Shown here piece by piece: positions 920-17,537 of a stretch of 64,000 nucleotides of DNA (position 1 is the stretch's first letter; each line of letters starts with the position of its first letter). Source of the DNA: Chloroflexota bacterium. Lineage in GTDB: Bacteria > Chloroflexota > Dehalococcoidia > JACPEP01. Below the pieces are notes generated by a model. It ran no database searches, was not told the DNA's origin, and saw nothing but the letters and a program-made list of their open reading frames with translations. The DNA lies in assembly GCA_016183425.1 (NCBI GenBank), contig JACPEP010000033.1, positions 1-64,000 on the forward strand, written 5' to 3'. A program made the position numbers and the translations under genes.

Positions 920-1984
920 ATGCCGAAGCACATCAAAAAAAGATCCCAAAAGGTCGGCCTTCCCCCAGGGACTCTGGTTCATATCGGGGAAAAGAAGACC
1001 GAGAAAGCCAAGGTCACCTATTTGGATTACGATGAGCTCCATTGCGGCGAAAGAGAAATAGAAAACCTGGACGGTGGTATTCAGAGCCAAGGTGCCCCCG
1101 CTGTCACATGGATAAACGTGGATGGCCTTCACCAGGTGGAGGTTCTGGAGAAGCTGGGCGACCATTTTGGTCTGCATCCCCTGGTGTTGGAGGACATCCT
1201 GAACACGGACCAGCGCCCCAAAATAGATGACTACGGCGGCTTCCTTTACATCGTTCTCCGGATGCTCAATGAGGATGGCAGAGGCGACGGAATAGACACT
1301 GAGCAAGTAAGTGTAATTCTTGGCCCCAGCTTCGTTATCTCCTTCCAGGAACGAGAAGGCGACGTCTTCGACCCCGTGAGACAGCGCATCAGAACCGGCA
1401 AAGGGCGCATAAGAAAGCTGGGGGCCGATTACCTTGCCTACTCCTTGCTCGACTCGGTGGTGGACAACTATTTCGGCATCTTGGAGCGGCTGGGCGAGGA
1501 GATAGAGGTCTTGGAAGATGAGTTGGTCACCAACCCTACGCGCAATACCTTACACACCCTCCATCGTCTCAAAAGAGAGATGATATTGCTCAGCAGGGCG
1601 GTGTGGCCGCTAAGGGAGGTAATCAGCGCTTTGGAGAGGGCGGAATCCCCCCTCGTCAAAGAGTCCACGGCCATTTACCTCAGGGATGTCTATGACCACA
1701 CCATTCAGGTCATTGATACCATAGAGACGTATCGGGATATGCTCTCGGGAATGCTGGATATCTATCTTTCCAGCATCAGCAACCGAATGAACGAGGTGAT
1801 GAAGGTACTGACGATAATAGCCACCATATTCATCCCGATCACCTTTGTCGCCGGGATATACGGGATGAACTTCAAGTACATGCCCGAGCTGGAGTGGCCC
1901 TGGGCCTATCCGGCAGTTCTGTTTGTCATGCTGGCAGCGGCAGGCTCTATGCTACTCTACTTCAGAGGTAAGAGATGGCTGTAA
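920..1984 (+). CDS. corA: CorA-family magnesium/cobalt channel
   Basis: A 354-residue protein. The C-terminal end carries the family signature YGMNF, just after the first of two closing transmembrane helices; the second lies in the last 25 residues. The long helical region before it (about residues 190-290) fits the CorA stalk, and the N-terminal alpha/beta part fits the cytoplasmic funnel. CorA pentamers let divalent cations, mainly Mg2+, enter the cell. I chose ATG 920 (MPKHIKKR) rather than an in-frame ATG at 758, because length and N-terminus then match the usual 320-370 residues and the 758 extension looks non-coding. The 3' end overlaps glgE by 10 bp, so the two are probably co-transcribed. 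Confidence 0.9.
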   Translation: MPKHIKKRSQKVGLPPGTLVHIGEKKTEKAKVTYLDYDELHCGEREIENLDGGIQSQGAPAVTWINVDGLHQVEVLEKLGDHFGLHPLVLEDILNTDQRPKIDDYGGFLYIVLRMLNEDGRGDGIDTEQVSVILGPSFVISFQEREGDVFDPVRQRIRTGKGRIRKLGADYLAYSLLDSVVDNYFGILERLGEEIEVLEDELVTNPTRNTLHTLHRLKREMILLSRAVWPLREVISALERAESPLVKESTAIYLRDVYDHTIQVIDTIETYRDMLSGMLDIYLSSISNRMNEVMKVLTIIATIFIPITFVAGIYGMNFKYMPELEWPWAYPAVLFVMLAAAGSMLLYFRGKRWL

Positions 1985-3981
1985 GAACCCAGTTGGGAAT
2001 GCCACCGAGGAAGAAGCCAGGCCTCGGGAAAGAAGGGGAAGGCCGGATACGGGCGGCCATCGAAGGGGTGACCCCTCAGATAGACGGGGGCCGTTTCCCC
2101 ATTAAACGAGTAGTGGGGGAGACAGTGGTTGTGGAGGCGGATATTTTCACCGATGGTCAGGATGCCATCTCTGCCGCTCTTCTGTACTGCAAAGAGGATG
2201 ACCCTCCGTCTCTGGCGGAGGCTCCCCTGGAGCACCTGGGACAGGATCGCTGGCGGGGGGCTTTCACCGTTACCCAGGTGGGTCGCTACCGCTACACCCT
2301 TATGGCCTGGGTAGACCCCTTCCAGTCCTGGTGCCAGAGTCTGGTCAAAAAGGTGGAGGCGGCCCAGGATGTGTCCATGGAGCTTCAGGAGGGGGCACGG
2401 CTCCTCAGAGAGGCCAGTGAGCGGGCACCCCAGCCCTTAGCCGGAACCCTTAAGGGGTGGGGGGACGCCCTGGTCTTGGCAGAAGTGCCCTATTCAGACC
2501 GGATCCAGCTCGCTCTGAGCCCGGAGGTAGCCTCAGTCATGGACCGCTACCCCCAGCGCCTCTTTGCCTATACCTATCCCCAGGAGCTGCTGGTGGTGGT
2601 GGATCGGGAGCGGGCCCGTTTCAGCGCCTGGTACGAGATGTTTCCTCGCTCATGCGCTCCGGAGCCCGGGCGCCAGGGCACCTTTGCCGACTGCGAGGCG
2701 CGCCTTCCCTACATCGCTGCCATGGGCTTTGACGTCCTTTATCTCCCCCCCATCCACCCCATCGGCCACACCCATCGCAAGGGCAGGAACAACGCTCCTC
2801 AGGCCGGGGACGGGGAGCCGGGCAGCCCCTGGGCCATCGGCTCAGAAGAAGGAGGCTACCAATCCATCCATCCCCAGTTGGGCACCCTGGAGGACTTTCG
2901 AAGGTTATTAGCCAAGGCCCAGGAGTGGAGCATAGAGGTCGCCCTGGATTTAGCCTTTCATTGCTCTCCCGACCATCCTTATGTGCGGGAGCATCCGGAG
3001 TGGTTCCGTCGCCGCCGCGACGGCAGCGTCCAGTACGCCGAGAACCCCCCTAAAAAATACGAGGATATTTACCCCCTTGACTTCGAGACCCCGGGCTGGC
3101 GGGAGCTATGGGAGGAGTTGAAAAGGGTGGTCCTCTTCTGGATTGAACAGGGCATTCGCATCTTTCGCGTCGATAATCCTCACACCAAGCCCTTCCGGTT
3201 CTGGGAATGGCTCATCGCCCAGATTAAGGAGGCTTATCCCGATGTCATTTTCCTCTCCGAGGCCTTTACCCGTCCCAAAGTCATGTATCGGCTGGCCAAA
3301 TTGGGCTTTACCCAATCCTATACCTATTTCGCCTGGAGAAATAACAAGGGGGAGCTTACCCAGTACTTCACAGAGCTTACCCATACCGAGAGGCGAGAAT
3401 ATTTTCGAGGGAACCTCTGGCCCAACACTCCGGACATCCTGACGGAGTATCTTCATTCTGGAGGGCGGCCCGCCTACATGGCCCGCCTCATCCTGGCCGC
3501 CACCTTGGGCGCTAGCTACGGCATCTACGGCCCCGCCTTCGAGCTCTGCCAAGAGCAGCCCAAGGAACCGGGAAGCGAGGAGTATCTGGACTCAGAGAAG
3601 TACGAGATAAAGCACTGGGACATTGGAAGGCCCGACAGCCTGGCGGGCCTCATCGCCCGGGTGAATCAGATTCGCCGCGAGAATCCTGCCCTGCAAAGAG
3701 ACTGGGGGCTGCGCTTTCACCCCGTGGACAACAACCAGCTCTTCTGCTACACCAAGTCCACTCCGGACAACGTCATCCTGGTGGTTGTGAACCTGGACAG
3801 CCGCTATACTCAGTCGGGCTGGGTGGACCTGGAAGCTCTGGGACTCGACCCCCACCAACCCTACCAGGTGCACGATCTCATAAACGATGCCCGCTACCTC
3901 TGGCACGGCCCCCGCAACTATGTGGAGCTCAACCCGCAAGGGGTTCCGGCCCACATCTTTCGCCTTCCCACCGGGGGCTGA
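1975..3981 (+). CDS. glgE: GlgE: alpha-1,4-glucan:maltose-1-phosphate maltosyltransferase (GH13_3)
   Basis: A 668-residue protein. The N-terminal beta domain (residues about 20-130) is of the DUF3416 type found in GlgE. A GH13 barrel follows, with the GlgE-typical motif RVDNPH (nucleophile D400) and SEAFTRP (acid/base E429). The 29-residue spacing equals that in Streptomyces GlgE (D394/E423). The enzyme moves maltosyl units from maltose-1-phosphate to the ends of linear alpha-glucan in the cytoplasm. The start at 1975 has AGAGGTAAGAG upstream and overlaps corA. Its pathway partners (TreS-maltokinase, GlgB) lie 8 kb downstream at 12.0-19.5 kb, beyond an unrelated mercury-resistance island, so the original cluster appears to have been interrupted. 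Confidence 0.95.
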   Translation: MAVRTQLGMPPRKKPGLGKEGEGRIRAAIEGVTPQIDGGRFPIKRVVGETVVVEADIFTDGQDAISAALLYCKEDDPPSLAEAPLEHLGQDRWRGAFTVTQVGRYRYTLMAWVDPFQSWCQSLVKKVEAAQDVSMELQEGARLLREASERAPQPLAGTLKGWGDALVLAEVPYSDRIQLALSPEVASVMDRYPQRLFAYTYPQELLVVVDRERARFSAWYEMFPRSCAPEPGRQGTFADCEARLPYIAAMGFDVLYLPPIHPIGHTHRKGRNNAPQAGDGEPGSPWAIGSEEGGYQSIHPQLGTLEDFRRLLAKAQEWSIEVALDLAFHCSPDHPYVREHPEWFRRRRDGSVQYAENPPKKYEDIYPLDFETPGWRELWEELKRVVLFWIEQGIRIFRVDNPHTKPFRFWEWLIAQIKEAYPDVIFLSEAFTRPKVMYRLAKLGFTQSYTYFAWRNNKGELTQYFTELTHTERREYFRGNLWPNTPDILTEYLHSGGRPAYMARLILAATLGASYGIYGPAFELCQEQPKEPGSEEYLDSEKYEIKHWDIGRPDSLAGLIARVNQIRRENPALQRDWGLRFHPVDNNQLFCYTKSTPDNVILVVVNLDSRYTQSGWVDLEALGLDPHQPYQVHDLINDARYLWHGPRNYVELNPQGVPAHIFRLPTGG

Positions 3982-4011: not shown

Positions 4012-4040
4012 TTGACAATGTCCAGGCTTTGGGTTATTAT
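4012..4040 (+). promoter_or_regulatory. Strong sigma-70 promoter for the arsR/mer island
   Basis: TTGACA at 4012-4017, a spacer of exactly 17 bp and TATTAT at 4035-4040. Transcription should begin near 4047, about 25 bp before the regulator start. The short AT-rich leader 4040-4070 is the likely operator region, but I could not define a convincing dyad. Confidence 0.7.
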
Positions 4041-4070
4041 ATTCTTAAAATCGTATATGAGAGGATAAAT

Positions 4071-4436
4071 ATGGCTACCATTATGACTAAAGACAATGCC
4101 CAGTCTGGAATGAAGCTTGAACTGACCACCAAGTTTTTTCGCGCTTTGGGCGACCCCAGCCGCCTAAAGATTCTCGATTCTCTCTTAGAAGGGGAGAGAA
4201 ATGTGGGAGAACTGGTGGAGGTAGTGGGATCGAGTCAGGGCCGGGTCTCGAATCATCTGGCTTGCTTGAAGCAGTGTGGCTTCGTAAACACCCGCCGGGA
4301 TGGCAAGTTCGTTTACTATAGCATCAGAGACGAAGATGCTCTCCGCCTGCTGGAGATCTCTCAATCGATGATAGCTAGGAATGCGGAGCGAATCTGGGCC
4401 TGCACCCGGGTGAGCGCTTCCAGTGAGGAGGATTGA
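4071..4436 (+). CDS. ArsR/SmtB-family metal-sensing repressor, CmtR-like
   Basis: A 121-residue winged-helix regulator with the family core FFRALGDPSRLKIL and the recognition helix SSQGRVSNHLACLK. Cysteines C65 and C69 lie in the recognition helix and C111 near the C-terminus. This matches the layout of the Cd/Pb site in mycobacterial CmtR (C57, C61, C102) rather than the alpha3 ELCVCD site of ArsR. That makes a soft-metal inducer (Hg, Cd or Pb) likely. ATG 4071 is chosen because GAGAGGA stands just upstream and the longer frame from 4029 begins inside the promoter. A merA remnant follows immediately, so it probably once controlled arsR-merA directly and may now control the whole island. Confidence 0.85.
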   Translation: MATIMTKDNAQSGMKLELTTKFFRALGDPSRLKILDSLLEGERNVGELVEVVGSSQGRVSNHLACLKQCGFVNTRRDGKFVYYSIRDEDALRLLEISQSMIARNAERIWACTRVSASSEED

Positions 4437-4437
4437 G

Positions 4438-4482
4438 TTGGACAGGTATGACCTTGTAATCATCGGCGGTGGGGCAGGGGGC
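4438..4482 (+). pseudogene. Remnant of the 5' end of a merA gene
   Basis: A TTG start at 4438, preceded by GAGGAGG, opens a frame whose first 15 codons encode LDRYDLVIIGGGAGG. After the first residue this is identical in protein to the start of the intact MerA at 9689. Over 41 aligned bases 35 match, and all six differences are silent. Homology ends near 4482; the frame then runs through unrelated sequence to a stop at 4561-4563. So the FAD-binding start of a second mercuric reductase, with its ribosome site, survives directly after the regulator, and the rest was lost or replaced by the cassette that follows. Confidence 0.8.
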
Positions 4483-4541: not shown

Positions 4542-6095
4542 GTGCCATTCTTGGCTGGAGTAACGCTTCTTTGGCTGCTTTTCTGGTCGGGGTTTATCGC
4601 CTGGTGGTGGCTCATGTCCCTGCTCTTCCAGCGGGGCGATTACGCCCTGGCGGTTGCTGTGGCCTATGCCCTGCCTACAGTCTATACGCTAGCTGCCTGG
4701 CTCGCCTCCCGGGTAAGGGGCTATTATATAAAGCTGCTGCATTTCGCTACCTTCGCTGTTCTTGCTCTGGCCTTCGCTGTTGCCCTGGTGTCCTTGGGTA
4801 AGTCCCCACCACAGAACGACTTCAGCGCCTACCTAAGCGTGGCCCTTATCGCCTTTGTCATGGCCCTGATGCAGTATCCCAAGGCCGGGCTGAAGCAATA
4901 TGAGGCCTACAAGACCTCCCTTTTCATCGGCGGGGTCATCTTCATGCCCCTGTTCATTTACTTCGCCGCCATGCTGCCCAATGTGCCCCACACCCCCGCC
5001 CTGGACAAGGCCTGGCTCTTCCCTGTAGGGATGCTGGGCTTCTGGCTCTCCGGAGCCTGGCTGGCCAGCCGGGCCACCCAGGGGGGCTATGTCCCTGGCC
5101 TAGAGATAAGACCCCTTATGCCCTTCCGTCCCGATTTCATGCTTCCTGGAGGGGTTACCTTCGTCAAGGGCATCATTATGATGGGCGTGGGCCTGATGCT
5201 AGCCATACACCCCATGTTGGGCATGCCGATGTGGAACTGGTGGGGCTTTGTCCTCGCTTTCTGGGGGATCATCACCATTGTCCCGCTGCGGGGTATGTAC
5301 AAGATGGTCAAAGGCAAGCGGGTCCGGATGCTGGGGATGGGTGGCACTGGCTTCCAGGCGGAGCTGGCCAAAGGTCTCATCCTGTTCCTTGGCCTGAACA
5401 TCATGCTCTATGGCTTTGTCAACGCCTTCATGGGCGCTACCCCCTTCCTTGAGCTGGGGGTAAAGCGGGAGTTCAACTCCCTGTGGCTGGGCAACCTGGC
5501 CGGGGCCATTGGGGTGGCTGCCTTCGTCCTGTCCTTTGCCGTCCTGGTCCTGTGGCGGGGCTGGTATAAGGTTAGGCTGCTGGAGGGGGCCGAAACCTGG
5601 GGCCAGATGCTGAACAAGCAGTTCCTGCTCTACGTCGGCTCCCTGCTCCTGCTGGTGGCCTACATGCACCTTTTGAACCTGCCGCCCATCCAGGGCGCTG
5701 GCTACATGGCCTTCTATCCGGGGGACAACCCGGTGGGCTTTTGGGTAGGAATCGGGCTTTTCGTCGCTGGTTCGGCCCTCATCCTGGTGCTCCGGCCCCT
5801 AGCCCTTAGGAACGAGTTTGAGGCCTTGGTGATGACCATGGTGGGAATGATAAGCGATGCCGAGGAGGGGGTGCGGCGCTGGGCGATGGAGCACCGGATT
5901 GGGGCCCTAACTGCTATGCCGGTGGCCCAGAGGGATAGGCAGGTGAAGCTCATGATGGCTGGGTTGGGCCGCCTTCCCCAGGAGAAGAGGGAGGTCATGG
6001 TAAAGACCCAGATGGAGATCCTCTCCGAACTGAGCTCTGAGCAGAGGCGACGGATGATGGCGTCTATGGATAAGGCTATGCTAGGGGGTGCTTAG
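4542..6095 (+). CDS. Polytopic membrane protein with C-terminal methionine-rich helical repeat
   Basis: A 517-residue protein I cannot assign to a family. It begins with GTG and has AGGAG at 4531-4535. About ten hydrophobic segments span residues 1-430. The last 75 residues are soluble, helical and rich in Met, Gln and Arg, with landmarks ALTAMPVAQRDRQ, AGLGRLPQEKRE, QMEILSELSSEQRRRMM. The same tail module occurs in the middle of the 7065 protein, twice in the 8316 protein and as a lone peptide at 6278. The gene abuts the 61-residue membrane protein at 6096 with no gap. Transport or membrane scaffolding is possible, and a link to mercury handling is only inferred from position. Confidence 0.7.
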   Translation: MPFLAGVTLLWLLFWSGFIAWWWLMSLLFQRGDYALAVAVAYALPTVYTLAAWLASRVRGYYIKLLHFATFAVLALAFAVALVSLGKSPPQNDFSAYLSVALIAFVMALMQYPKAGLKQYEAYKTSLFIGGVIFMPLFIYFAAMLPNVPHTPALDKAWLFPVGMLGFWLSGAWLASRATQGGYVPGLEIRPLMPFRPDFMLPGGVTFVKGIIMMGVGLMLAIHPMLGMPMWNWWGFVLAFWGIITIVPLRGMYKMVKGKRVRMLGMGGTGFQAELAKGLILFLGLNIMLYGFVNAFMGATPFLELGVKREFNSLWLGNLAGAIGVAAFVLSFAVLVLWRGWYKVRLLEGAETWGQMLNKQFLLYVGSLLLLVAYMHLLNLPPIQGAGYMAFYPGDNPVGFWVGIGLFVAGSALILVLRPLALRNEFEALVMTMVGMISDAEEGVRRWAMEHRIGALTAMPVAQRDRQVKLMMAGLGRLPQEKREVMVKTQMEILSELSSEQRRRMMASMDKAMLGGA

Positions 6096-6281
6096 ATGTG
6101 GCTTCTGTTTCTCTTGCTGGCCGTGATTGCTCTGGCTATCATCCTCTACCTTCCCCTGGGGGCTGGGTTAGGATACCTGGTGGTCATCACCTGGATTGCT
6201 CTAATGCTATACCTCGTCTTTTACCGCGAGGACGCGGTTTCTCAAACCTTAGAAAAACGGGTAAAGGAGGTAAAGCCATGA
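6096..6281 (+). CDS. Small membrane protein, 61 residues, unknown function
   Basis: The frame starts directly after the stop codon of the 4542 gene and ends in an ATGA overlap (6278-6281) with the next gene, so it sits inside a translationally coupled operon. Residues 1-45 hold two hydrophobic stretches (WLLFLLLAVIALAII and YLVVITWIALMLYLVF). The C-terminal 15 residues are charged and should be cytoplasmic. No recognisable family motif is visible. The absence of gaps, the coupling and the good hydrophobic profile argue that it is real. Confidence 0.6.
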   Translation: MWLLFLLLAVIALAIILYLPLGAGLGYLVVITWIALMLYLVFYREDAVSQTLEKRVKEVKP

Positions 6282-6364
6282 AAGACATGGTGAGGATGCT
6301 GGCACAGGCTCCCGAGGAGCAGAGGCGGACCATGATGGAGAAGATGGCCACCCTGCTGGGTTGA
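6278..6364 (+). CDS. 28-residue standalone copy of the methionine-rich repeat unit
   Basis: The frame has a very good ribosome site (AAAGGAGG, 7 bases before ATG) and overlaps the preceding stop by ATGA. The peptide begins MKDMVRMLAQAPEEQRRTMM. This aligns with the start of each half of the 8316 protein (MKDMVKALAGMPEEQRKTMM): 14 of 20 positions are identical and several others conservative. It is the minimal form of the repeat shared by four genes in this island. It could be a free peptide that pairs with the larger proteins, or a remnant of a truncated gene. The strong ribosome site favours expression. Confidence 0.6.
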   Translation: MKDMVRMLAQAPEEQRRTMMEKMATLLG

Positions 6365-6374
6365 GGGAGGGGAG

Positions 6375-7034
6375 ATGGTCACACCTGCTACCGCACCGGC
6401 GACCACCGTGGAGTCGCCAGCTCCTGGCCCCTCCGCCTCTATGGAGGGTAGTAGAGGGACATACTACCTGTTTGAAGAGGTTAGCAACGCCGAGGCCAAA
6501 CGGTTCTGTGGGACCCTCTGGGCCATGGCTACTGCTTTGGTGCAGGTTCCGGAAAGCCGCATCACGGTGCTTATTAACAGCGGCGGCGGCTCGGTCGGGG
6601 CAGGCTTTGCCATGATCGAGATGATGTACAAGGTCAAGCGGGAGTTGGGTATCCCGGTTGACACTGTCATCCTGGGCTATGCCTACTCCATGGGGGCCAC
6701 CATCTTCCAGGCGGGAGACCACAGGAGTATGGGCTACTTCTCCACCATGATGTTGCACAGCTCTTCCTGGCAGGTAAGCGGGCGGGATAGCGAGGTGTTC
6801 AAGGACCTGAAGAAGCTCTCCGATCTCTACCAGGGGATGACCGCAGAGCTGTTCTTCCGGCGAACGGAGCTCCATTCCGCGCAGTGGTGGCAGCATCTCA
6901 TCTACTCGGGCACGGAGCGGTACCTCTCGGCCCAGGAGTGCTTGAAGCTAAGGCTGGTGGACGAGGTGTGCCAGTTCCTGGACGAGTGCTACCGGCCGAC
7001 TACACCTTCGCCAACAGGGGGAAAGGATGAATAG
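6375..7034 (+). CDS. ClpP/TepA-like serine protease, 219 residues
   Basis: The crotonase-like ClpP fold is recognisable: LINSGGGSVGAGFAM (residues 67-81, oxyanion strand), GYAYSMGA with nucleophile S105, and MMLHSSSWQ with H128. In ClpP the third catalytic residue is Asp in the motif ERDRFLSA; here the aligned motif is GTERYLSA with Glu181. The triad is therefore Ser-His-Glu if active. The first 25 residues are Pro/Thr/Ser-rich and not conserved. There is no signal peptide, so it is probably cytoplasmic. ATG 6375 has GGGAGGGGAG upstream. It sits among genes for repeat-bearing membrane proteins, not beside clpX, which suggests a dedicated substrate rather than general protein turnover. Confidence 0.8.
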   Translation: MVTPATAPATTVESPAPGPSASMEGSRGTYYLFEEVSNAEAKRFCGTLWAMATALVQVPESRITVLINSGGGSVGAGFAMIEMMYKVKRELGIPVDTVILGYAYSMGATIFQAGDHRSMGYFSTMMLHSSSWQVSGRDSEVFKDLKKLSDLYQGMTAELFFRRTELHSAQWWQHLIYSGTERYLSAQECLKLRLVDEVCQFLDECYRPTTPSPTGGKDE

Positions 7035-7064
7035 GCACCAGTTGATGGGGAACATGAGAAGCGC

Positions 7065-8090
7065 ATGAACTGGGCATTGTGGTTTTTGCTCTTGGTACCG
7101 CTAGGGATACCGGTTGGAAGCTTGACGATGGACCGAATTCTTGGCATCCCTGCGCGAAAACAGTGGGTTGTGTTAGGGATTCCCAGCCTAGGTGTATTTG
7201 TGGGTGCCTTGGTCTATGCCTTTGTCGTGGACGACTCCGTTGCCCGACTCGTAGGCTGGGGCGCGCTGGCAGGGGTGCTAGGCTCGGTAACCCTGGACGC
7301 TGTCCGACTCATAGGCGTGCGGTTAAAGGCGTTTCCCCTGGACATGCCAGAGATGTTTGGCATGATTGCCCTGGGGCTGGCACCCAGGTTGCAGCGAAAC
7401 ATGATGAAGGAGATGGTTGCTCACACCGCTGCGTTGTCTGATGGACAACGGAAAGGCATGTTAGAAGCACGCCTTAAGGCGCTCGCGGGGATGCCCGCCC
7501 GACGGCGAGAGGTGGTAATGGCAAGTATGATGGCTGGCCTGGCGGAGCTCCCGGAGCAGCGGCGGCAAGCTATGCTGCAGACCCAGATGGCGATCCTTTC
7601 CGAGCTCCCGGGAGAGCAGCGCCGTGCCCTCATGGCGACTATGGATGCTGGGATGACCAGGGCAGGGAATGGCACAGGCAAACTACCGAATAGCCAGCCA
7701 AGGGGGATGCCGCGTATTCCCATGGCTACCTTCCGCAGCTTGGCGGAGAGAGCTCTGCCCCGCACACGCCAGGAGGCTGGCGTCTCCATTGCTGCCGTTC
7801 GGACACTGGGGTACTTGTGGCACTTCGTCATTGGGACCACATTTGGTATCACCTACACGCTCATCTTCGGCCAGGGCTCCTGGGATCTGGCCTTCGCGTG
7901 GGGGACCTTTGTCTGGCTGATGATGATGATCCTCATGCCACCGATGATGCCCATGATCCGGTTCCCGAGGTGGTTCCCCGTCGTTCCCTTCATAGCTCAT
8001 ATCGCTATGGCAGTCCCGTTCGCTTTAGTCTCGCTGTACCTGGTCAGCGACACTGCCCACCTGCACAGCTTACTGGGCGCTCTCGGTTAG
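7065..8090 (+). CDS. Membrane protein with central methionine-rich repeat
   Basis: A 341-residue protein, family not recognised. Residues 1-100 contain three hydrophobic segments, residues 125-205 carry the repeat module (landmarks ALAGMPARRRE, AGLAELPEQRRQAM, QMAILSELPGEQRRALM), and residues 245-335 contain three further membrane segments, including the Met-rich WLMMMILMPPMMPMI. The module aligns residue for residue with the C-terminus of the 4542 protein. The soluble helical module would sit between two membrane bundles. The ribosome site (GAGAAG) is modest. The Met-lined membrane segment could hold soft metals, but that is a guess from composition and the mer neighbours. Confidence 0.65.
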   Translation: MNWALWFLLLVPLGIPVGSLTMDRILGIPARKQWVVLGIPSLGVFVGALVYAFVVDDSVARLVGWGALAGVLGSVTLDAVRLIGVRLKAFPLDMPEMFGMIALGLAPRLQRNMMKEMVAHTAALSDGQRKGMLEARLKALAGMPARRREVVMASMMAGLAELPEQRRQAMLQTQMAILSELPGEQRRALMATMDAGMTRAGNGTGKLPNSQPRGMPRIPMATFRSLAERALPRTRQEAGVSIAAVRTLGYLWHFVIGTTFGITYTLIFGQGSWDLAFAWGTFVWLMMMILMPPMMPMIRFPRWFPVVPFIAHIAMAVPFALVSLYLVSDTAHLHSLLGALG

Positions 8091-8179
8091 GTCGGAGGAT
8101 GCGTGAATGGCCCGGCTAGAGACAGCAGAGACGAGGAGGTGGAGGGCGCCGGTTGGAGAGTATCGCAGAGGGATAGCAC

Positions 8180-8293
8180 ATGAACCGGGGTGACCCTTCT
8201 GGGAAAGGAGGCAGAGGTGAGAATGAGTGTCCTCCACTGAAAATCTTTGTTACCCAGGCGACAGACTCCGTCAAGGAGTTCCTGCATCATTAG
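8180..8293 (+). CDS. Possible 37-residue peptide
   Basis: A short frame MNRGDPSGKGGRGEN.. to ..SVKEFLHH in the 225-bp gap before the 8316 gene. There is no strong ribosome site and no match to the repeat family. It is listed only because the gap is otherwise unexplained and the C-terminal half (PPLKIFVTQATDSVKEFL) has amphipathic character. Confidence 0.2.
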   Translation: MNRGDPSGKGGRGENECPPLKIFVTQATDSVKEFLHH

Positions 8294-8315
8294 TGAAGAA
8301 TAGGAGGTGACCAAA

Positions 8316-9182
8316 ATGGCTATGGATATGAAGGACATGGTGAAAGCGCTGGCGGGCATGCCGGAGGAGCAGCGCAAGACCATGATGGGGGAGCGGCTGG
8401 AGATGTTCGCCGAGATGACGGAGGCGGACAGGAAGACTGCCATGAGCCAGATGATGGAGGCAGTGGGCACCCTGCCCGAAGCCGATATCCGCAAGCTGCT
8501 CAAGACACGCACCGAGATCCTGTTCGAGCTGCCGGAAAGCAAACGGATGGCCCTGATGCAGACCCACATGGGTCTCCTGAAGTCCATGCCCCAGCAAAAG
8601 GCCATGATGGAGATGGACATCCTTAAATCTCTAATGCCGGAGCTTAGCATCAAAGCCAGACAAGGGATGATGCAAATGATGGAGACGATGCCCATGCCGG
8701 CCATGGCCGAGCCGGACAAACCGGCCGCTACCATGACCATGAAGGACATGGTGAAAGCGCTGGCGGGCATGCCGGAGGAGCAGCGCAAGACCATGATGAC
8801 AGAGCGGCTGAACATGTTTGCCGATATGAGGGAGAGCGAGCGGGCCGAGGCTATGAAGGCGATGATGGAGGCGGTGGGCACCTTACCCAGGGATAGTGTG
8901 CAAAAGCTCATCAAGAGCCGCACTCAGATCCTGTGTGACCTGCCCGATATGAAGCGGATGACCCTGATGAAGACCCACATGGGCCTCCTCCAGGGCATGC
9001 CCCAGGCGAAGGCGATGATGGAGATGGAGACCATCAAGTCTATCATGCCCGAGCTCTCTTACCGCCACCAGCAGCAGGTGGAGGAGATGATGAAGATGAT
9101 GCCTATGCCAGCTATGGCCGCGGCTCCCCGGAGGGAGCCGGTGGAGACTCCGAGGAAACGATGGTGGGAATTCTGGAAATAA
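8316..9182 (+). CDS. Soluble protein made of two tandem copies of the methionine-rich repeat domain
   Basis: A 288-residue protein without membrane segments. Two domains of about 137 residues begin at 8328 and 8739; their first 60 bp are identical, so the duplication is recent or kept alike by gene conversion. Each half contains ALAGMPEEQRKTMM, a leucine- and threonine-rich middle (VGTLPEAD or VGTLPRDS) and KTHMGLL, and ends in a Met/Pro stretch (MPMPAMA). Methionine is unusually frequent. The tail KRWWEFWK is aromatic and basic and could touch a membrane. AGGAGG lies 8 bases before ATG 8316, which decides against the GTG at 8307. Function unknown; it may be the soluble partner of the membrane proteins at 4542 and 7065. 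Confidence 0.75.
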   Translation: MAMDMKDMVKALAGMPEEQRKTMMGERLEMFAEMTEADRKTAMSQMMEAVGTLPEADIRKLLKTRTEILFELPESKRMALMQTHMGLLKSMPQQKAMMEMDILKSLMPELSIKARQGMMQMMETMPMPAMAEPDKPAATMTMKDMVKALAGMPEEQRKTMMTERLNMFADMRESERAEAMKAMMEAVGTLPRDSVQKLIKSRTQILCDLPDMKRMTLMKTHMGLLQGMPQAKAMMEMETIKSIMPELSYRHQQQVEEMMKMMPMPAMAAAPRREPVETPRKRWWEFWK

Positions 9183-9267: not shown

Positions 9268-9435
9268 GTGACGGAAAAGGTTAGTCTATGTAAGGATGGC
9301 CACTGCTGCCCGGCGGTCGAATTAGGTGAGGCCGAGGTGCGCATCGGCGAGGAGGGTAACCTGGTCAAGCTGAGCAAAGAGGAGTGGAATGCCCTAGTGG
9401 AAAAGATAAAGGCGGGAGAGCTAAGGCCTCTGTAA
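9268..9435 (+). CDS. 55-residue cysteine-containing small protein
   Basis: A GTG start with AAAGGAGG upstream. The protein has the cluster LCKDGHCCPAVEL at residues 7-19 and a charged helical C-terminus (LSKEEWNALVEKIKAGEL). Three cysteines and a histidine within seven residues suggest binding of a soft metal or a redox role. It lies just before the MerF-like gene, so it may belong to the mercury operon. I do not recognise a named family. Confidence 0.55.
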   Translation: MTEKVSLCKDGHCCPAVELGEAEVRIGEEGNLVKLSKEEWNALVEKIKAGELRPL

Positions 9436-9688: not shown

Positions 9689-11092
9689 ATGGACAGATAT
9701 GACTTAGTTATCATCGGGGGTGGGGCGGGGGGGTTCGCCGCCGCCACTCGTGCCTCAGAACTTGGTGCTAAGGCAGTCCTCATCAACATTGGGCTGCCCC
9801 TGGGGGGCACCTGCGTCAATGTGGGCTGCGTGCCCTCCAAACTCTTGCTGGAGATTGGCAGCGAATACTATAGTCCCCGGCATCCTCGTTTCCGGGCCGT
9901 GAGGAATGGCCACTCCGCATCTTTCGACTTCGACACTGCCATGGGGGAGAAGGACGAGATAGTAAGCGCCCTGAGAAAAAGCAACTACATCCAGGTCGCC
10001 GAAGGCTTGGGCATCCCGCTGCTGGAGGGCAGAGCCAAGTTTATTTCACCGCGGCGAGTGGAGGTAGCGGGAAAAATCCTGGAGGCGGACAAATTCATCA
10101 TCGCCACTGGTTCCCGGCCTCGCATTCTGCCCTTCAAGGGTCTGGACAAGGTCCCTTTCCTTACCAATCGGGAGGCGTTAAGCCTGCCTCGGCTGCCCAA
10201 ATCTATGGTTGTCATTGGGGCGGGGCCGTTGGGTCTGGAATTTGCCCAGATGTATGCCCGCTTCGGCACCAGAGTGACGGTGCTGGAGAGAGAGCGCCAA
10301 ATTCTGCCCCAGGGCGAGGGGGAGGTGGCCGCCGAGCTTCAAAGATGTCTCCAGGAGGAAGGCATTGAATTCTATACTAGAGTGGACGTGGAGGAAATCC
10401 GACCGGAGGCCCAGCTCAAGATAGTAGAGGCGAAGCTGGGCATGCCCCGGCTCACAGTGGCGGGGGAGGAGCTGCTCCTGGCCACCGGGGTGACTCCCAA
10501 CAGCGACGACATGGGCCTGGATGCGGCCGGGGTACAGGTGGGCCGGGGAGGCTTTATCCCGGTCAATCCCCAAATGCAGACCACGGCGCCCCATATCTGG
10601 GCCGCCGGCGATGTGGTGGGCAAGACCTTCTTGGAGACAGTGGCGGCCAAAGAGGGATACATCGCCGCTTCCAATGCCCTAGAGGGGGTGGCCAAGTCTC
10701 TGGACTACGATTCCATCCCCAGAGCCGTTTTCACCGATCCCCAGGTGGCCAGCGTTGGCCTCACCGAAGAGGAGTTCATGAGGCGCTACCACGTTTGTAG
10801 CTGCCGCACGGTTAGAATAGACCAGGTACCGAAGGCCAGAGCCATCAAAGAGACCAGGGGTCTGGTGAAGATGGTCGTTCACCCGGAGACAGGGGTTGTC
10901 GTTGGCGTACACATAGTGGCACCTATGGCGGCAGACCTTATCCATGAGGCAGCCCTGGCAGTGAAGTTCAAGCTCACCATTGATGACATTATCGACACGG
11001 TGCACGTCTTCCCCACCATGAGTGAGGCCATAAAGCTGGTGGCTCAGTCTTTCAAACGGGATATTTCCCGGATGAGCTGTTGTGTGGAATAG
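9689..11092 (+). CDS. merA: Mercuric reductase MerA, short form without NmerA domain
   Basis: A 467-residue FAD/NAD(P)H disulfide oxidoreductase. The FAD site is at the N-terminus (IIGGGAGG), the redox-active pair is C42/C47 in GGTCVNVGCVPSK, a second dinucleotide site is GAGPLGLEFAQ, and the C-terminal vicinal cysteines C464/C465 (SRMSCCVE) deliver Hg2+ to the active site in MerA. These C-terminal cysteines distinguish MerA from lipoamide dehydrogenase. No N-terminal HMA domain is fused; a separate HMA lipoprotein follows. The enzyme reduces Hg2+ to Hg0 in the cytoplasm. GGAGAAAG precedes ATG 9689, and the 3' end overlaps the next gene by 11 bp. Confidence 0.95.
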   Translation: MDRYDLVIIGGGAGGFAAATRASELGAKAVLINIGLPLGGTCVNVGCVPSKLLLEIGSEYYSPRHPRFRAVRNGHSASFDFDTAMGEKDEIVSALRKSNYIQVAEGLGIPLLEGRAKFISPRRVEVAGKILEADKFIIATGSRPRILPFKGLDKVPFLTNREALSLPRLPKSMVVIGAGPLGLEFAQMYARFGTRVTVLERERQILPQGEGEVAAELQRCLQEEGIEFYTRVDVEEIRPEAQLKIVEAKLGMPRLTVAGEELLLATGVTPNSDDMGLDAAGVQVGRGGFIPVNPQMQTTAPHIWAAGDVVGKTFLETVAAKEGYIAASNALEGVAKSLDYDSIPRAVFTDPQVASVGLTEEEFMRRYHVCSCRTVRIDQVPKARAIKETRGLVKMVVHPETGVVVGVHIVAPMAADLIHEAALAVKFKLTIDDIIDTVHVFPTMSEAIKLVAQSFKRDISRMSCCVE

Positions 11093-11435
11093 GGTTTCGC
11101 CCAAGATATCAGTTATCGCTGCCATACTTCTAGCTGGTAGCATTTTGCTCTTAGCAAGTTGCGGCGGCACTGCCACATCGGCGGGTATTGGTGCTGGGAC
11201 TAACCCCTCACTCAGCGAAGTGGCCTTAGAGGTTCCTACTATCTGGTGTTCCGATTGCAAACTCAGGGTCGAGAAAAGCATCAGAGGCGTACCTGGGGTG
11301 AAAGAGGTGAAGTTCGATGCCCTGCGGATACAAGTAGTGGTCATTGCTTACGACACAGCGCAAACGACTCCCCAAACTATCGTTGAGGCGATAGAAAGAG
11401 GCGGGGACAAGGTGACCCAGACAACCAAGCCATGA
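11082..11435 (+). CDS. MerP-like mercury-binding lipoprotein (HMA domain)
   Basis: A 117-residue protein. Residues 1-27 are a lipoprotein signal ending in LLLASC (lipid-modified C27), followed by a short Gly/Thr linker and a heavy-metal-associated fold with the metal site WCSDC (C56, C59). MerP is usually a free periplasmic protein; a membrane-tethered form suits a cell without an outer membrane or with an unusual envelope. It would collect Hg2+ outside and hand it to MerT. GTG 11082 lies inside the end of merA, and the stop overlaps the merT start by ATGA. Confidence 0.8.
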   Translation: MWNRVSPKISVIAAILLAGSILLLASCGGTATSAGIGAGTNPSLSEVALEVPTIWCSDCKLRVEKSIRGVPGVKEVKFDALRIQVVVIAYDTAQTTPQTIVEAIERGGDKVTQTTKP

Positions 11436-11857
11436 AACCAGCGGGTGGCCCAAAAGTGCTGAGTGGCCCTAGCCTTGATGGTTCACCCTCCGGTCAGGAG
11501 CGAGATAGACTGGGAATAAAGGACAGGCTGCTGTTGATAGGACAGGGAGCCATGGGAGCGCTAATAGGCAGCGTATGTTGCCTATTACCGGCAGCAGCCG
11601 TAGCTATCGGACTAACTGGGGGCTTGGCCGCTACAATTGTTAGCCTGGGTCAGTTTAGACTTTACTGGATAATAGCTGGCCTTACTTTCATCGGTATCGT
11701 ATCTTGGTTTTCGCTCCGACGGAGCCGAGCGTGTTGCACGGTAGAGGAATACAAACGCCGTGAGATAGTCATACCTTTGACCATGCTCGCCTCCTTTGGC
11801 GCGGTTTATGTTCTAATCATGTACCTGATCCTACCTATTATCTATGGGCTGAGTTGA
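11432..11857 (+). CDS. merT: MerT-like mercuric transport protein
   Basis: A 141-residue protein with three membrane helices. Cysteine pairs lie at C49/C50 in the first helix (GSVCCLLP) and C101/C102 in the cytoplasmic loop (SRACCTVEEY), exactly the two pairs used by MerT to relay Hg2+ to MerA. A 30-residue polar N-terminal extension precedes the first helix. It is translationally coupled to the MerP-like gene and is the last gene of the island. The 200 bp to treS contain no gene. Confidence 0.85.
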   Translation: MKPAGGPKVLSGPSLDGSPSGQERDRLGIKDRLLLIGQGAMGALIGSVCCLLPAAAVAIGLTGGLAATIVSLGQFRLYWIIAGLTFIGIVSWFSLRRSRACCTVEEYKRREIVIPLTMLASFGAVYVLIMYLILPIIYGLS

Positions 11858-12057: not shown

Positions 12058-15401
<3,344 letters not shown>

Positions 15402-15405
<4 letters not shown>

Positions 15406-17530
15406 GCGCCACCCGTCGCATCTCGCCACTCCACCAACTAGCCCGTCTCTACGATGTGCAGTTAGCGTATTACGATGTGGACAGCCGGCGCCAGAGCGCC
15501 TCCAGGGAAGTCCTACTTACTGTGCTCAGGCTCCTGGGCGCTTCCGTAGTCACCTTCAAGGATGTCCCCTCAGCCTTGCGAGAGCGTCGGCAGGCCCTTT
15601 GGCAGCGGGGGTTGGAGCCAGTGGCGGTAGCCTGGAACGGCGGCCCCCTGGCCCTTGAGGTTCGACTTCCCGCCGCCACCGCCGATGGCCCACTGGTGGG
15701 CCACTTGACCCTGGAGGGTGGGGGGCAGGAGAGGTGGGAGTGGGAGGGGGCCGCCTTGCCAGCGGTGGAGGCTGCCCAGGTGGAGGGGATACCATATCTA
15801 GTCAAACAGCTTCCGCTGCCCGGCGGGCTCCCCTGGGGTTATCACCGCTTTATCCTGGAAAGCAGGGGGACGCCTTTGGACTCCCTCATTATCGTCGCCC
15901 CCGTCGCCGCATTCGCCACCCCAGAGGCAAGAGACGAGCGAGCCTGGGGCGTATTCCTACCCTTATATGCCCTTCACACCAGACGAAGCTGGGGGTGCGG
16001 CGACCTTACTGACTTGGCGACTTTCGTTGCCTGGCTGGCCGAGATGAAGAGCGGTATGGTGGCCACCCTCCCCCTCCTGGCGGCCTTCTTGGACGAGCCC
16101 TTTGAGGCCAGCCCTTACGCTCCCGCCAGCCGCCTTATGTGGAATGAATTTTACCTGGACGTGACCGCCATCCCTGAGCTAAAGGAGTCCCCCGCCGCCC
16201 AGGCCCTGCTTAGCTCACCATCCTTCCAGAAAGAGTTGGACGCCCTGGGTTCCTCGCCCCTGGTGGACTACCGCCGGCAAATGGCGCTGAAGCGCTCCGT
16301 CCTGGAAGAGATGTCCCATCATTGTTTCGCGGTGGGTGGAGAGCGTTTTGCCAGTCTGCAACGCTTCGGCGAAGACTATCCGGCAGTGGAGGAGTACGCT
16401 CGATTCAGAGCCACCCTTGAGCGCCGGCGGACCCCCTGGCCCACCTGGCCAGCGCCTCTGAGAGACGGCGTATTGAAAGAGGGCGACTACGACGAAGGGG
16501 CAAGACGCTACCACCTCTTCGTGCAGTGGCAGGCCCAGGAGCAGTTCCATGCCCTTTCCCGGAAAGCAAAGGAGTTGGGCGTGAAGCTGTATATGGACAT
16601 GCCCCTGGGAGCTCATCCCGATGGCTATGACGTCTGGAAACATCGAGAGCAATTCGTCCAGGGGGCTTCCATGGGGGCACCGCCCGATACCTACTTCCCC
16701 CTGGGCCAGGACTGGGGGCTGCCCCCCCCGCATCCGGAAGGGCTGCGCCGTCACGGCTACCGCTACTACATAGCCTCCCTGCGGCATCTTCTCCAGCACA
16801 CCGCCGTGCTACGTATCGACCACGTCATGGGCCTCCATCGCCTCTTTTGGGTCCCTTGGGGGACGGAACCCCGCCACGGGGTGTACGTGCGCTACCGCCC
16901 CCAGGAGTTTTACGCTATCCTCACCCTGGAGTCCCATCGGCACCAGACCATGCTGGTAGGCGAGGACCTGGGCACCGTGCCCCCGCCGGTGCGACCGGCC
17001 ATGGCCCGCCACGGCCTTCACCGCATGTATGTGATACAGTACCAGATGAGCCTCAATCCCCAACAAGCCCTTCGCCCCGTCCCTAAGGAGACGGTGGCCA
17101 GCCTCAACACCCATGATATGCCCCCCTTTGCCGCCCTGTGGCAGGGGTTGGATACGGAGAACCGGCTGCGACTCGGTCTGTTGGACGAGAGACAGATTGA
17201 GCAGGAGCGGGAGGAGCACCGACAGCTTTTATCCACACTGGTGACCTTTTTACGCCGCCGGGGGCTCCCCACGGGAGAGCCCCCGGACCTGGAGACTGTC
17301 ATCAGGAGCATGCTCACTTTTCTCTGCGCTAGTCGGGCCCATTTCGTTTTGGTAAACTTAGAAGACCTGTGGCTGGAAGCCCAACCCCAGAATACGCCCG
17401 GCACCAAAGACACCTGCCCCAACTGGCGTCTCAAAGCCCGCTATGACTGGGAGACTTTCTCTCGCTTGCCTCAGGTGGTAGATGTGTTGCATGAAATAGG
17501 CAGGCTTCGAAAGCAGGGGAATAACCCGCC

Positions 17531-17537
<7 letters not shown>
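15402..17537 (+). CDS. malQ: 4-alpha-glucanotransferase (amylomaltase), GH77
   Basis: A 711-residue protein of the long, actinobacterial-like type: about 180 residues of N-terminal beta domains precede the GH77 barrel. Catalytic motifs are [12 protein letters not shown] (nucleophile Asp), VGEDLGTVP (acid/base Glu) and LNTHDMPPF (transition-state Asp). It disproportionates linear malto-oligosaccharides, feeding or trimming GlgE primers. It is coupled to treS at the start and overlaps glgB by 7 bp, so the four genes 12.0-21.9 kb form one transcription unit. Confidence 0.9.

Follow-up and report, generated by a model that had tools for sequence, protein, structure and literature searches.

Gene content of the locus

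The 64,000-nucleotide stretch analyzed here, called the window, covers positions 1 to 64,000 of contig JACPEP010000033.1 (our locus G000:C9) in the 2.7-Mb genome of a Dehalococcoidia bacterium (Chloroflexota; assembly GCA_016183425.1). In it, a cassette of genes for uncharacterized, mostly membrane-attached proteins with a common methionine-rich helical repeat shares a gene run and strand with merA, the mercuric reductase gene. The order on the plus strand is arsR, M517, a 61-amino-acid (aa) membrane open reading frame (ORF), a 28-aa ORF, a ClpP-like gene, M341, S291, h55, a MerF-like ORF, merA, a merP-like gene and a merT-like gene. The regulator heading the run belongs to the ArsR/SmtB family and is not of the MerR type. 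Other lineages have the same cassette next to mercury genes, which makes it a probable, so far undescribed supplement to defense against mercury or other soft metals. The features of the run are as follows.

4012 to 4040, plus strand: sigma70-like promoter (TTGACA-17-TATTAT) upstream of arsR, matching 11 of 12 consensus positions
4029 to 4436, plus strand: ArsR/SmtB-family metalloregulator (HTH_5, 8e-17; NF033788, 93.6 bits, cut-off 55)
4439 to 4481, plus strand: merA-like 5' remnant, 43 nt directly after the arsR stop, identical at 37 of 43 positions to the true merA start (9690 to 9732)
4542 to 6095, plus strand: M517, polytopic membrane protein with four C-terminal 19-aa repeats (aa 440-515, nt 5859-6086)
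6096 to 6281, plus strand: s61, 61-aa small membrane protein, overlapping the next ORF in ATGA
6278 to 6364, plus strand: 28-aa peptide of one terminal repeat, with AAAGGAGGT 6 nt upstream
6375 to 7034, plus strand: ClpP-like serine peptidase (PF00574), with Ser105 and His128 aligned to the catalytic Ser and His
7065 to 8090, plus strand: M341, with transmembrane segments TM1-3, five 19-aa repeats (aa 105-199, nt 7377-7661) and TM4-6
8316 to 9182, plus strand: S291, with the Met-rich repeat block twice (aa 18-112 and 155-249, numbered from GTG 8307) and a C-terminal RWWEFWK tail
9268 to 9435, plus strand: h55, small CxxxxCC protein, a native mer operon member with 69-74% identity in L111, L113 and L114
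9458 to 9655, plus strand: 65-aa two-helix protein with ICCSVPLLIV, which reads like a MerF-type transporter and has no family match
9689 to 11092, plus strand: merA, mercuric reductase (TIGR02053, 545 bits, cut-off 454)
11082 to 11435, plus strand: MerP-like lipoprotein with an HMA domain (TIGR02052, 3e-9, below cut-off)
11432 to 11857, plus strand: MerT-like transporter (PF02411, 3e-4, below cut-off)

The promoter upstream of arsR is the sole strong promoter-like match between 3900 and 12000, a region in which matches overall are no more numerous than in shuffled sequences. Promoter and terminator matches between the cassette and merA were likewise not above shuffle level. For arsR, ATG 4072 is a more likely start than 4029. 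M517, s61, M341 and S291 have no mer-family match in Pfam or NCBIfam, and a search of Rfam gave no match. An ORF with a CC-P motif, similar to the MerF-like ORF, is also found at L080:920-1111.

A methionine-rich repeat with a 19-residue period

A preliminary description of this DNA had proposed that one helical module is common to four genes of the island, with a ClpP-like gene among them. Both proposals held up. M517, the 28-aa peptide, M341 and S291 have in common a helical module whose period is exactly 19 residues, and the ClpP-like gene (6375-7034) lies among their genes. The unit consensus is [LM]-P-E-x-x-R-[RK]-x-M-M-x-T-[MR]-M-x-A-L-A-E. With an iterated 19-column profile, 106 units were found in 18 proteins of the families, and within blocks the spacing is exactly 19 residues almost everywhere, in every family. 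The methionines are concentrated at positions 1, 9, 10, 13, 14 and 17, which form one broad face of the helix.

Pairwise likeness was measured as Smith-Waterman scores against composition-preserving shuffles (500 each). The Z scores were 22.7 for M517/M341, 12-13 for M341/S291, 7-8 for M517/S291, 10 for S291/peptide and 44.7 for the two halves of S291 against each other. None of the 500 shuffles reached the real score in any pair except M517/peptide, which is weak (Z=4, with 2 of 500 shuffles reaching the score). Composition is thus excluded as the cause of the likeness for all pairs but this one. In profile-profile comparison, the M5xx family (M517 and its homologues) and the M341 family match at E=6e-14 in the repeats only. 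By sequence comparison, then, the repeats of the module families are shown to share a common origin.

The module had also been called unrecognized. This stands in that profile searches placed it in no family with an established role, and is qualified by S291, which narrowly passes the Pfam threshold for DUF3106 (PF11304; 27.6 bits, cut-off 24.3). M341 (20.5 bits) and M517 (12.3 bits) are both below that cut-off, and four of the seven S members match DUF3106 at E<=0.01. The match may rest on a generic LPxxxR helix pattern. Matches of S291 to SigE-type sigma factors and HAAS were below cut-off or partial and were set aside as generic LPxxR helix similarity. The same applies to a role in anti-phage defense, for which PADLOC gave only a weak partial CARF5 match of S291 (23.6 bits).

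Distribution of the repeat genes

Homologues were sought in sampled genomes and by one exact-seed scan of a genome collection; they are few and lie nearly all on contigs of metagenome-assembled genomes (MAGs). The module is present in 7 of 393 sampled genomes of the same class, in other Chloroflexota and in a single MAG of Acidobacteria (G743, L006). Clusters were read in G415 (L001), G446 (L041), G475 (L003/L045), G740 (L002, L080), G626 (L042) and G285 (L047), and in G692, where the cluster is on two contigs (L004/L005, L043/L044) that overlap within S. G457 (L046) holds a distant S relative. The repeat genes therefore do co-occur elsewhere, with gene content that varies between genomes. M5xx is found in the genome studied here, G415, G475, G692, G740 and G285, with a fragment in G743; M341 is found in the genome studied here, G415, G446, G626 and G285; and S is present in all clusters except that of G285, where the contig ends close by. 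So scattered an occurrence across many families suggests horizontal transfer.

A gene for a CRP/FNR-family regulator is divergent beside M5xx at L001:4830-5558 and L043:5888-6616, and another lies near M341 at L042:1931-2740. It is a possible second regulator of the module; the L001 protein is the one whose family was tested.

Repeat proteins at the membrane

In M517, the module was found at the C-terminus (aa 440-515), as the preliminary description had it; it follows the last membrane helix. M517 has no Pfam family above threshold, and its AlphaFold2 model is poor (predicted local distance difference test, pLDDT, 53) except in the repeats (about 70-84).

The 28-aa peptide consists of a single module, again as first described, with the weakness of the M517/peptide pair noted above. 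Its ORF begins at the ATGA that ends the s61 ORF, within which AAAGGAGGT lies. It is probably translated, because this is a good ribosome-binding site. The peptide resembles the last repeat of the M5xx homologues (59% to M579 of L003), a terminal repeat that is absent from M517 itself. A terminal repeat also ends just upstream of the ClpP-like gene in other clusters, by about 20 nt in L003 and 40 nt in L004; the peptide ends 10 nt upstream in the window. That the peptide is a deletion remnant of a gene of the L004:6802 type is possible, yet it matches the M5xx terminal repeat equally well.

M341 carries its repeats (aa 105-199) between two membrane bundles, in agreement with the preliminary description. 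Its AlphaFold2 model (pLDDT 77, predicted template modeling score 0.70) has TM1-3, five helices of 15-19 residues spaced by 3-4 residues, and TM4-6. The basic residues R24, R31, K32, R81, R86, K88, R299 and R302 are on the repeat side of the membrane. No Pfam family was above threshold. A fold search with the model found nothing in the PDB (best E 0.45) or among viral models (0.24), and the M341 profile gave only chance matches among PDB sequences, to amyloid precursor protein helices. There were no relatives in the plasmid search or the IMG/VR scan.

S291 is 18.6% methionine and contains the module twice (aa 18-112 and 155-249), as had been noticed; several other S proteins have the repeat block once. 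The ATG at 8316 taken as its start is likely correct, since homologues begin MxMDMKDM. S291 had been called soluble, and this part we revise. S proteins end in WWEFW(K) or WWRFW in the genome studied here, L001, L002 and L003; that of L044 ends in a hydrophobic helix and that of L041 in a membrane segment, and for one S member there is a match to the SPW membrane domain. Because of these C-termini, S proteins, S291 included, are probably attached to the membrane by their tails. No relatives of S291 were found in the plasmid search.

Three observations concern the S neighborhoods. A His/Glu-rich protein of 71-72 aa (HEEHxHEHxxVEIxDxETIxAFEQ; no Pfam match) adjoins S at L041:8223-8438 and L043:418-636. 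In the Acidobacteria MAG (L006:556-1329), the S gene start is in frame with TrmH-type rRNA methyltransferase-like sequence, either a truncation or an assembly chimera. In G457 (L046:7336-9903), the distant S relative (MPGMMRKQMMKGRINQLL...) is beside a 607-aa polytopic protein with internal repeats of its own, which was considered as an M5xx relative and rejected as not related.

The ClpP-like peptidase

The ClpP-like protein matches PF00574 at 9e-18 (65 bits, cut-off 20.2) and is below every NCBIfam ClpP equivalog cut-off (PRK00277, 54 of 249 bits; NF045542, 70 of 120). Its Ser105 and His128 occupy the positions of the ClpP nucleophile and base in the alignment. The position of the triad Asp is E, E and Q in the three orthologues, so the Ser-His-Asp triad is not complete; another acid could substitute. 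The protein is a divergent enzyme of the ClpP fold whose activity is uncertain. It had no relatives in the IMG/VR scan and only distant matches (<32%) on plasmids. Among the genomes found, the gene is present only in the one studied here, G475 and G692, and is thus an optional part of the cassette. The repeats and the peptidase would be on the same, cytoplasmic face, because neither the S nor the ClpP-like proteins have an evident signal peptide and the basic residues of M341 are on the repeat side.

These data raise the possibility of a peptide clamp coupled to proteolysis. In it, the Met-rich solenoids would capture hydrophobic stretches of membrane proteins that are damaged or orphaned and hand them over to the ClpP-like peptidase, with protein damage by mercury as the link to mer. 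The ClpP-like gene is directly downstream of a terminal repeat in the genome studied here, L003 and L004, with Ser and His kept. The methionines are at helix stripe positions, and M517 and M341 lack Cys and are poor in His, which makes a hydrophobic surface at least as likely as a metal site. Such a clamp is harder to reconcile with the clusters or contigs of G415, G446, G626, G285 and G740, which lack the ClpP-like gene, with a third triad residue that is not conserved, and with a cassette in which no unfoldase gene was seen. We consider this explanation unlikely, though a serious contender.

Conservation of the methionines

Methionine ordinarily exchanges freely with other hydrophobic residues. 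In ortholog sets that are small (3-6 sequences) and not independent, it was kept in 105 of 118 comparisons (89%) in the first S block, compared to 88% for Arg, 70% for Leu and 26% for Ile (Met vs Leu, Fisher p=0.002). In the M5xx repeats, Met was kept in 82% and Leu in 53%; in MerA, used as a control, the values were 39% and 67%. Since residues so readily exchanged are kept here, selection seems to act specifically on the methionines of S and M5xx. Their conservation fits either thioether ligands or a flexible hydrophobic surface, and sequence alone does not decide between the two.

A high and conserved methionine content would also suit an oxidant sink, in which the methionines are reversibly oxidized by reactive species and are not ligands, and TlpA/CcdA-type redox genes are found in some clusters. 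However, a mere sink would not keep single Met positions at 89%, and no methionine sulfoxide reductase was recognized in the clusters read, so this explanation is very improbable.

Insertion into the mer operon

merA adjoins the module in the genome studied here, G415 (L001), G446 (L041), G475 (L003) and G692 (L044), and an N-terminal merA fragment precedes M5xx in G740 (L080), which gives six genomes with merA or a fragment beside the module. Neighbors in other clusters include MerE, HMA proteins, a CsoR-like ORF and P1B ATPases. With merA called at E<=1e-100, 27 of 386 sampled genomes of the class have the gene: 5 of 7 with the module and 22 of 379 others (Fisher p=2e-5, or 2e-4 without the genome studied here; the genomes are related, yet no two of the seven with the module share a genus). 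Counting all merA-positive genomes as module carriers was rejected, as most do not have the module. G692 has two merA copies (L044:2076-3615 and L082:4723-6126), both apparently broken by frames or stops, which may be decaying or mis-assembled.

Empty sites provide the comparison for the insertion. G425, G418 and G450 have the order arsR-h55-merA, with ArsR 62-73% (upstream of merA in L111, L113 and L114) and h55 69-74% identical to the proteins of the window, where the cassette separates arsR from h55. Set against these sites, the cassette is shown as an insertion into the mer operon. The merA-like remnant at 4439-4481 resembles a scar left when a second mer operon recombined with this one, and the merA fragment before M5xx in G740 is a comparable arrangement. 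It is reasonable to suppose that ArsR and mercury control the cassette.

The mer island is flanked (1975-3981 and 12058-17537) by GlgE maltosyltransferase-, TreS-maltokinase fusion- and MalQ-like genes, identified by eye. Glycan genes flank other mer clusters too, with a GH57-like ORF in L111 and a glucoamylase-like ORF in L001 (also by eye).

A proposed role in soft-metal defense

We tentatively favor an accessory membrane scaffold for defense against soft metals, probably Hg(II), on the cytoplasmic face, and give this reading a probability of roughly 45%. The topology, joint transcription, complex formation, metal or client binding and peptidase coupling of the following scheme we infer. The cassette would be a mobile unit inserted between arsR and h55, with transcription probably starting at the ArsR-controlled promoter. 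The core proteins would carry alpha-solenoids of 19-residue helices held at the membrane, with M5xx anchored by its polytopic domain, M341 by its two three-helix bundles and S by a C-terminal anchor or the WWEFW tail. The repeats, most likely cytoplasmic, would pack together via a common surface into a membrane-bound scaffold, in keeping with the hetero-oligomer assembly suggested in the preliminary description; any assembly with the protease is speculative. The likeliest task of the methionine stripes (positions 1, 9, 10, 13, 14 and 17) is to hold a soft metal ion or hydrophobic protein segments damaged by Hg(II). Capture would occur near the entry of Hg(II) through MerT/E/F-type transporters, as an accessory to MerA, with the ClpP-like peptidase as an optional partner that removes damaged protein. 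Soft-metal handling, suggested in the preliminary description, thus gains from the embedding in the mer operon, the merA enrichment and the methionine conservation, while metal binding itself we still infer.

Several points weigh against such a scaffold. With the repeats in the cytoplasm, thiols of the cell should outcompete thioethers for Hg(II). Methionine conservation may reflect packing, its figures come from the few sequences noted above, and in the M341 repeats Met (75%) and Leu (71%) are kept without a difference. The ClpP-like gene is absent from most clusters. The 22 merA genomes of the class without the module mean that it is not needed for Hg reduction. In G285, merA is only on another contig, and no merA match above 40% identity accompanies the module or a relative in G626, G743 and G457; G626 has a Cu-type P1B ATPase nearby (TIGR01511 above cut-off).

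These last occurrences could be explained by a scaffold for envelope stress in general or for copper/silver stress, a hitch-hiker of mer operons on mobile metal islands that carry both. S and M341 of G626 are near the Cu-type ATPase with no merA, a CsoR-like ORF (by eye) is beside S in L002, and the occurrences in G743 and G457 have no merA. The strong merA enrichment and, in the genome studied here, the position of the module inside the mer gene run argue the other way. In addition, the mer partners differ (ArsR-type, MerR-type), so the mer linkage arose more than once. We therefore regard hitch-hiking as quite unlikely.

The mercury scaffold also has a bolder form, an undescribed soft-metal membrane machine. 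Met-lined 19-residue solenoids, borne by two membrane proteins unrelated to each other and by one anchored through its tail, would assemble on the cytoplasmic side, capture Hg(II) or membrane proteins damaged by it and, in some lineages, pass damaged protein to a ClpP-like peptidase dedicated to this task and close to the membrane. We hold this version to be doubtful.

Comparison with known systems

DUF3106 has no known function and no mention in the literature searched; S291 resembles it narrowly above the cut-off, unlike M341 and M517. ClpP and ClpP-like head-maturation proteases share PF00574, Ser and His with the cassette's peptidase, which differs in its scores below the equivalog cut-offs and in E/E/Q at the third position. 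SilE, a methionine-rich, intrinsically disordered periplasmic silver sponge (PMC5008109), is likewise a Met-rich accessory protein of metal resistance, by analogy only. In contrast, the module proteins are predicted to be ordered 19-aa helical repeats, membrane-anchored and without evident signal peptides. The M domain of SRP54 also has methionine-rich helices, an analogy of principle only. It binds signal sequences (PMC4468861), and differs in that the module has no GTPase and no sequence or fold match to it was found. The strict 19-residue repeat with its conserved methionines poses the question of metal ligand or hydrophobic clamp in a helical scaffold on the cytoplasmic side.

The closest setting is that of the mer accessory genes (merT, merP, merE, merF and merD). 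The cassette is inside an arsR-merA run and, in several genomes, near merA and relatives of merE, merT or merP, but no module protein matches a mer family. The mer proteins listed in the introduction of PMC8261052 are MerP, MerT, MerC, MerE, MerF, MerG, MerR, MerD and MerB, none of which is like the module proteins. The module proteins thus represent families without a name in surroundings that are otherwise typical of mer. Few metal resistance systems have been studied as thoroughly as the mer operon, which would be extended by a further layer if an accessory module of several genes, spread horizontally and based on a repeat that has no name, belongs to it.

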